Assembly: GCF_001403635.1 (NCBI RefSeq)
Contig: NZ_LN879467.1
Location: forward strand, 186,001 to 250,000
DNA: 64,000 nt
Reading direction: 5' to 3'
Origin: Clostridium massiliamazoniense
GTDB taxonomy: Bacteria; Bacillota; Clostridia; Clostridiales; Clostridiaceae
Shown: piece by piece, positions 60,652 to 61,407 of the stretch
Layout: every line of letters starts with the position of its first letter
How positions within the stretch are numbered: position 1 is the first letter of the stretch
Notes under the pieces: generated by a model
The model's database searches: none
Told to the model about the DNA's origin: nothing
The model's input: only the letters and a program-made list of their open reading frames with translations
Program-made: the position numbers and the translations under genes

Positions 60652-60870
60652 TTATTTAACAAATAATAATATTATCGCAATAACCAATCCATATATTGCA
60701 GTAGCTTCTGCTAATCCAGCTCCCAATATAAATGTACTTTGAATCTTTCCCATCATTTCAGGACGTCTACCAATACCTTCACAGGCACCTTCTGCAGCTA
60801 TACCTATTCCAATACCTGCTCCTATACTTGTAACAGCAGCTAAACCTGCTCCTAATATTCCTATATCCAT
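60652..60870 (-). CDS. atpE: ATP synthase c subunit, canonical (ion-binding)
   Basis: 72 residues, two membrane helices joined by a polar loop (GRRPEMMGK). Helix 2 has the essential carboxylate Glu55 in [11 protein letters not shown], equivalent to Asp61 of E. coli. The Na+-site partners are absent: the position equal to Gln32 of Ilyobacter is Ile, and the residue after the Glu is Ala, so protons are the likely coupling ion. Third of three tandem c-type genes, 78 bases after the second one, so it may have a separately set expression level. AAAGGAGG upstream. Confidence 0.93.
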
Positions 60871-60948
60871 AACTTAACCTCCTTTAACTAGATTTTTAAA
60901 ATATTACTTAAGATATTAACTTATTATGCTACTTGTAGAAGTTTAAAC

Positions 60949-61167
60949 CTATTTAACAAATAGTATTATTATGGCTATTATTAATCCATAAATAGCAGTT
61001 GCACCACAAAGACCTGATGCCATAATAAAAATAGCTTGTATTTTACTTGCCATATTAGGTTGCTTAACTGTTGCTCTAATAGCCCCTGCTGTTGCTATTC
61101 CAGTTCCAATTCCTCCGCCAATCCCTGCTAATGCAGCGATACCAGCAGCTAAAAGACTTATATCCAT
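60949..61167 (-). CDS. c-subunit-like protein without the ion-binding carboxylate (copy 2)
   Basis: 72 residues aligning end to end with the canonical c subunit without gaps (loop VKQPNMASK, end [16 protein letters not shown]), but the residue at Glu55 is Gly ([11 protein letters not shown]). I re-read the codon (GGT) on the minus strand. Helix 1 has no acidic residue that could replace it. The fold is otherwise intact, with the [10 protein letters not shown] packing motif. AAGGAGG upstream; 15 bases from copy 1. It could not bind the coupling ion by itself, but could take a place in the ring. Confidence 0.92.
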
Positions 61168-61182
61168 AGCTTGTACCTCCTT

Positions 61183-61407
61183 CTACTTAACAAATATTAT
61201 TATTATGGCTACAACTAACCCGTAAATAGCGGTTGCACCAGCAAGTCCTGTACCCATTATAAATAAACTTTGAATCTTTCCTGCTAATTTAGGTTCCTTG
61301 GTCATTGATTTAATAGCCTCTGATGTTGCTATTCCAGTTCCAATACCACCACCTATACCAGTCATAACTGCAATCCCTGCTGCAACCATTCCTATACCAG
61401 TCAACAT
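61183..61407 (-). CDS. c-subunit-like protein without the ion-binding carboxylate (copy 1)
   Basis: 74 residues, two helices, two residues longer at the start. The position of the essential carboxylate is Gly57 ([11 protein letters not shown], codon GGT). Glu30 in helix 1 lies near the cytoplasmic end, not at the ion site. The polar loop is [10 protein letters not shown]. It is the first c-type gene after atpB and would normally be called atpE. AAGGAGG upstream. It and copy 2 resemble each other more than the canonical one in helix 1 ([10 protein letters not shown]). Confidence 0.92.

Follow-up and report, generated by a model that had tools for sequence, protein, structure and literature searches.

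Separate c-subunit genes without the ion-binding carboxylate in F-type ATP synthase operons of Clostridium and Sarcina: candidates for a mixed rotor ring

An F-type ATP synthase operon of Clostridium massiliamazoniense carries three complete c-subunit genes in tandem, and the first two encode glycine at the place of the essential carboxylate. The operon lies in the window, as we call the whole 64,000-nucleotide stretch of DNA that was analysed. Judging from gene order, conservation and residue patterns, we consider it probable that the rotor ring of this enzyme is built from two unfused kinds of single hairpin, an active c with Glu and a silent c with Gly.

The genes c1, c2 and c3 stand on the minus strand and are bounded by atpB (61436-62113) and atpF (60132-60611). 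The products of c1 (61183-61407, minus strand, 74 aa) and c2 (60949-61167, minus strand, 72 aa) lack the ion-binding carboxylate of helix 2, with Gly57 (codon GGT, 61237-61239) and Gly55 (GGT, 61003-61005), respectively, at the place of E. coli Asp61, whereas the 72-aa product of c3 (60652-60870, minus strand) retains it as Glu55 (GAA, 60706-60708). The helix-1 motif GIGTGIAT is common to c1 and c2, and a full AGGAGG ribosome site precedes each of the three genes. Homology extends over the whole hairpin, with PF00137 scores of 49.3, 50.2 and 65.0 bits for c1, c2 and c3 (Pfam cut-off 24); against the TIGR01260 cut-off of 43.95, c1 (47.2 bits) and c3 (63.6 bits) score above and c2 (40.2 bits) just below. 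Each product is a complete single hairpin, so none corresponds to the V-type chain of four helices with one carboxylate. The coordinates, codons and profile scores thus confirm what a sequence-only reading of this DNA had reported, namely three c genes with Gly, Gly and Glu at the Asp61 place, the two with Gly each behind a strong ribosome site.

The remaining genes follow in the order atpF, atpH, atpA and then the presumed gamma, beta and epsilon genes, all on the minus strand, so that c1 and c2 lie between atpB and atpF of a complete-looking F operon. The a-subunit encoded by atpB matches PF00119 and contains the motifs LRLWGN, which corresponds to the region of Arg210 in E. coli, and DGALQT; atpF (b-subunit) matches PF00430, atpH (delta subunit, 59590-60129) PF00213, and atpA (alpha subunit, 58062-59576) PF00006, PF00306 and PF02874. 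Putative gamma, beta and epsilon subunits were assigned to ORFs of 297, 464 and 139 aa at 55245-57978 from recognisable sequence and order, their contribution to the completeness of the operon being judged by order only. Between 60000 and 63500 no terminator-like site was found and the 28 promoter-like sites were no excess over the 26.2 expected, and the 78-nt gap between c2 and c3 folded no better than its shuffles (z 0.21); these results thus give no hint of switching between the two kinds of c gene. Rfam models at the gathering threshold gave no match in the whole window.

The sequence-only reading had also suggested that c subunits with Gly in place of Glu be sought in other Clostridium genomes. 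Such genes do exist: eight further silent genes were found in five other genomes, a recurrence beyond chance or the error of one assembly. The total stands at 8 operons with 10 silent genes in 6 genomes. In every operon the single active copy comes after one or two silent ones, which invariably lie between atpB and the active c gene, and every silent c is a separate gene of 72-77 aa with its own start, stop and ribosome site. Two silent genes and one active gene are found in the window and in Sarcina ventriculi NCTC12966 (G001, L001). Clostridium thermobutyricum DSM 4928 (G002; L002, L017) and a Clostridium MAG (G003; L003, L018) each have two operons with one silent and one active gene, and the Clostridium MAGs G004 and G005 each have one such operon beside an ordinary one. 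Within the Sarcina genus, silent c occurs in three of seven genomes (G001, G004 and G005).

These operons came from a scan of bacterial and archaeal species genomes with the two silent proteins, which gave 15 loci, four of them with silent c; the further silent genes were found by reading the other c matches in the same genomes. A c match was present in 65 of 68 genomes of the C. thermobutyricum genus, and only G002 and G003 had more than one; among the 63 with a single match, 28 were read by locus and the others judged by score. At the family level 12 of 206 genomes passed E 1e-25, five (G001-G005) with silent c and the other seven with Glu only, while 13 of 225 passed 1e-24 at the order level with the same five holders of silent c, and a single genome (G002) passed among 391 in an even sample of the class; these searches share genomes with each other and with the genus search, and such cut-offs would miss silent genes of greater divergence. 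In G001, G002 and G003 the c matches were confined to silent-type F operons and to frames of 161-176 aa that resemble V/A-type double hairpins, so that the silent type is, according to the assemblies, their only F-type enzyme. In G002 and G003, one operon of each pair is nearer to the alpha subunit of the window (81% and 78%).

Loss of an essential residue in a single genome would look like a functionless, decayed duplicate or a sequencing error. The silent genes are, however, ten open genes from 6 genomes that form one clade, have low pN/pS and share the same three substitutions in 10/10, and we regard decay or error as refuted by this conservation, as far as sequence allows, leaving it very improbable. 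In a c tree of only 73 columns, whose bootstrap was not quite settled, one branch (100/98) separates the 10 silent genes from the rest, and a second (100/98) does so for the 8 active partners. A tree of 42 a-subunits, with 223 of 257 columns kept and with rows cut at the first Met, which shortened many ordinary a-subunits, likewise had a branch (99/96) that sets the 8 sequences from silent operons apart from the others; the branch leading to Sarcina is long (1.02). The trees and the residue counts given below used 34 ordinary operons (L005-L008, L010, L057 and L023-L050), L009 and L011-L015 being left out. Together, these branches point to one old duplication that was kept with its own partner c and a-subunit, though the shared clades may stem from common descent rather than co-adaptation.

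Median pN/pS was 0.228 for silent genes (36 pairs from nine of the ten genes, the second Sarcina copy being left out) versus 0.299 for the active partners (28 pairs). In the three closest operon pairs, identities were 97, 88 and 86% for silent c, 94, 88 and 76% for active c, and 69, 73 and 73% for the a-subunit. By these measures of sequence divergence, silent c is under purifying selection at least as tight as that on active c. Long branches in the c tree lead to window c1 (0.41) and to the second silent copy of Sarcina (0.54), so a second silent copy may be drifting. The polar loop of the second Sarcina silent c (L001:6259-6489) is three residues longer through an insertion, and with its long branch this copy may be taking on a different role.

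Residues are given here in E. coli numbering. Gly24, Thr28 and Gly61 occur in 10/10 silent c, versus Ala, Ile and Glu in 34/34 ordinary c, and Ala62, Thr63 and Tyr66 are kept in 10/10 silent c. In the Ilyobacter ring, as described in the available part of PMC2359735, the ion is held by Glu65 and Gln32 of one subunit and by Ser66 and Tyr70 of its neighbour. In the standard alignment, Gln32 and Glu65 of Ilyobacter correspond to E. coli positions 28 and 61, and Ser66 and Tyr70 to positions 62 and 66. Silent c therefore looks like a hairpin that has no ion site of its own, yet could close that of its neighbour. Active c also keeps the neighbour-side residues, so a strict alternation of the two kinds would leave no mark there.

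The carboxylate of E. coli c can be moved from position 61 to position 24, and a comparable shift within the hairpin would leave the seemingly silent subunits still carrying ions. Position 24 is, however, Gly in 10/10 silent c; no other carboxylate lies within the membrane helices, and the acidic residues of these proteins are N-terminal or close to the polar loop. On the basis of Gly24 and this placement we reject the displaced carboxylate and grant it practically no probability. Sodium coupling is not favoured either, as the active partners lack the required Gln: Ile occupies this place of the Na+ motif in 8/8, including Ile28 of c3, and the Q....ET motif is absent.

Further differences concern charged residues and the stator. 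Position 37 is Lys or Arg in 9/10 silent c versus Glu in 34/34 ordinary c. All 8 active partners have Lys or Glu at position 33, Gly34, and Arg or Lys at position 42, while the 34 ordinary c have Gly or Ala33 in all 34, Gly34 in two and Gln42 in all 34. Glu33 is found in the partner c of the two operons with two silent genes, c3 of the window (Glu33, Gly34, Arg42) being one of them, and Lys33 in that of the six operons with one. The residues at positions 33, 37 and 42 possibly form a heterotypic charge pattern. The a-subunits of silent operons keep the LRL(F/W)GN and DG..Q motifs in 8/8 and have Thr253 together with Ile255 in 8/8. Neither Thr nor Ile occurs at these positions in any of the 34 ordinary a-subunits, where residue 253 is Met (32) or Val (2) and residue 255 is Val (33) or Ala (1). 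Apparently diagnostic columns at the a-subunit N-terminus (E. coli 34-51) were dropped, since the rows were cut at the first Met. According to the available text of PMC8809890, a single E56Q abolishes ATP synthesis in the fused c10 ring of Bacillus PS3; this speaks against a mixed ring, in that silent hairpins would be harmful in an ordinary one. If random entry of silent c is harmful, the distinct lineages of partner c and a-subunit matter.

We propose that the ring contains silent hairpins next to active ones, and that in this position the silent ones would have kept the residues of the neighbour's site (Ala62, Thr63, Tyr66) and lost Ile28 and Glu61 of their own site along with the adjoining Ala24. 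A full turn would then carry fewer protons, giving a low H+/ATP, and the main work of the enzyme in these fermenting anaerobes would be to pump protons strongly with ATP, with the gearing of a V-ATPase in an F-ATPase. Such a mixed ring would assemble without AtpI.

A second peculiarity of these operons is the lack of atpI. Of the 33 ordinary operons with at least 450 nt upstream, 32 have an atpI-like ORF, taken as one of 95-200 aa that ends close before atpB, versus none of the 7 silent operons with sufficient upstream sequence; the eighth silent operon is outside this count because a contig end cuts its upstream region. Pfam comparison of four among the 32 ORFs gave ATP-synt_I with E below 1e-3 for all four, two of them over the cut-off. 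The region of about 1.3 kb before atpB of the window (62114-63444, minus strand) has no ORF of at least 50 aa with a start codon, its longest stop-to-stop frame on the coding strand being 50 aa, and a six-frame search of the entire window with an AtpI profile found nothing up to E 1. DNA around the other testable silent operons (L001-L004, L016 and L018) gave neither an atpI-sized ORF nor an AtpI profile match. G004 and G005 each have atpI in their ordinary operon but not in their silent one. A Fisher test of silent c against atpI gave 4e-7 on the assumption of independent operons, which is untrue, and we rely on the counts alone. The exception among the ordinary operons is the Clostridium operon L048 (L048:1-790, G025), whose roughly 780 nt upstream of atpB contain no ORF of atpI size.

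Genome-wide, the AtpI profile matched in G004-G007, G202 and G203 (E 6e-11 or better); up to E 0.1 it had no match in G001 or G002, and in G003 it gave three weak ones, the best at 0.005. The Pfam AtpI model found only weak, sub-cut-off matches in G001-G003, but as the certain AtpI of G005 escapes it too, it is a poor control. UncI/AtpI is described as a c-ring chaperone in the available parts of PMC4154653 and PMC8904574. The sequence-only reading had named a role of the silent copies in assembly as its alternative, and this idea gains weight from the operons without atpI: silent c could be an assembly factor or nucleus that replaces AtpI, the mature ring having none of it or a single copy. 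Such a role accounts for the loss of atpI, including its absence from the silent operons of G004 and G005 and the missing or weak profile matches in G001-G003, with fewer assumptions. Silent c is, however, similar to c (PF00137) and not to AtpI, its conservation spans the entire hairpin with the neighbour-side residues included, two silent copies are kept in two operons, and the ordinary operon L048 shows that atpI can be lost without silent c. We judge it unlikely that silent c acts in assembly only.

Gene number does not fix copy number in a ring. In the 9:1 heteromeric ring of Acetobacterium woodii, one c1 is placed among nine c2/c3 (PMC8904574, as far as its text was available), and silent c might likewise enter as one or a few hairpins per ring, lowering H+/ATP only slightly. 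Against so small a share, the silent genes come first in order, with ribosome sites as strong as that of the active gene, and in two operons the silent genes outnumber the active one by two to one, although neither is a measure of copy number. Ring membership in several copies is the probable case; a minority share, a weaker form of the same proposal, is improbable. More tentatively, the mixed rotor may even be ordered, with an ion on every second hairpin in operons with one silent gene or on every third in the window and Sarcina, the silent/active interfaces fixing the order without AtpI; this we think possible, though rather doubtful.

Every silent hairpin in a mixed ring would turn without a proton and so lower H+/ATP. 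At an ATP potential of 40 kJ/mol, simple arithmetic on assumed rings gives a stall voltage of 124 mV for an all-active c10, 249 mV for a half-silent ring of ten hairpins and 311 mV for a two-thirds-silent ring of twelve. The available part of PMC5662883 likewise states that the attainable phosphorylation potential falls with fewer ions per ATP, which means that ATP synthesis needs a higher ion-motive force. On the best reading, an enzyme of this kind would make little ATP from a small gradient but would be well suited to ATP-driven proton pumping. Of the functions that the sequence-only reading had foreseen for a mixed ring, operation at lower ion-motive force therefore has the wrong direction for ATP synthesis, and the ATP-driven pump fits the low H+/ATP. 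The mixed F-type ring itself draws indirect support from the conserved genes of single origin, always beside an active c, and from the active-c and a-subunit clades that accompany them.

S. ventriculi is known to grow at very low pH, according to the available text of PMC10177144. Such growth would fit a proton pump working at high force. We know of no link to low pH for C. thermobutyricum or the MAGs.

Several known rotors resemble the proposed ring in part. The best PDB match of the silent profile was 4bem_J (5.6e-18), from the Na+ F1Fo of A. woodii (c1 with c2/c3; PDB 4bem), also an anaerobic Firmicute, which has a natural heteromeric F-type ring with a carboxylate-free hairpin, as is proposed here. 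In that enzyme, however, the silent hairpin is fused behind another one as the latter part of a double hairpin and contains Gln (Q....QT; PMC7911925, available part), whereas the silent c of the window has Gly and is encoded separately. The A. woodii enzyme is of the Na+ type and its mixed ring needs its own AtpI for assembly (PMC8904574, available part), while the active c of silent operons have no Na+ motif and the operons no atpI; fusion, Na+ motif and atpI, the marks of an F/V-hybrid of this type, are thus all absent. Clostridium aceticum (c1 fused, c2) follows the A. woodii scheme as outlined in PMC7911925, with a fused c1, a Na+ site and, in the part available, no unfused silent subunit, unlike the silent operons. 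The V-type proteolipid of Enterococcus hirae (NtpK, PDB 2bl2) has one ion site per two hairpins, as the proposed ring would, and its silent hairpin supplies residues to the site of its partner (PMC2359735, available part), as we propose for silent c; its hairpins are fused in one chain and work with a V/A-type stator, whereas those of the silent operons are separate chains in an F-type enzyme. Akin to the silent c idea are the hetero-mutated c10 rings of Bacillus PS3 with one or two altered carboxylates, of which one E56D left about 36% according to the available text of PMC8809890; unlike the silent operons, these rings are artificial and fused.

In the open-licence PMC literature, covered by titles and the starts of abstracts and with subscription journals mostly outside, we found no unfused silent c in an F-ATPase. 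As far as this search reaches, unfused silent hairpins without AtpI are real, conserved and undescribed, and they are a variant of the idea of a heteromeric F/V-hybrid rotor. How many ions an ATP costs or yields depends on the number of ion seats in the ring. V-type rotors are believed to have reached half that number through duplication of the hairpin, loss of one carboxylate and then fusion. If the mixed ring is true, these F-ATPases stand at the first two of these steps, with fusion absent, and represent the unfused step that the V-type history of duplication and fusion implies. That history, and the passage of silent hairpins by an F-type stator with a single Arg, would become approachable by experiment. 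For the low-pH-tolerant S. ventriculi the mixed ring would offer a plausible proton pump of high force, and it would run counter to the simple rule by which the lack of one carboxylate brings an F-type ring to a halt. The absence of atpI offers an added angle on the purpose of the AtpI chaperone.

Other parts of the window were compared as well. The beta-subunit DNA matched in 188 of 200 family genomes, and the atpD DNA reached at most 83% to any genome listed. The HtpG encoded at 49006-50880 was compared with 12 genomes, 11 of which matched: identity was 71-83% in eight of the 12, including 83% to G202, 82% to C. thermobutyricum and 71% to S. ventriculi, and 31-33% in three other Clostridium genomes. 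G007 had no match, and the family seems to contain two HtpG lineages. Window positions 6812-8571, 13064-16494 and 3973-6672 hold a putative ter stress cluster, recognised by eye, with three TerD-like proteins, neighbouring genes that resemble those of phosphoribosyltransferases and aldolases, and a cation ATPase of the P type.
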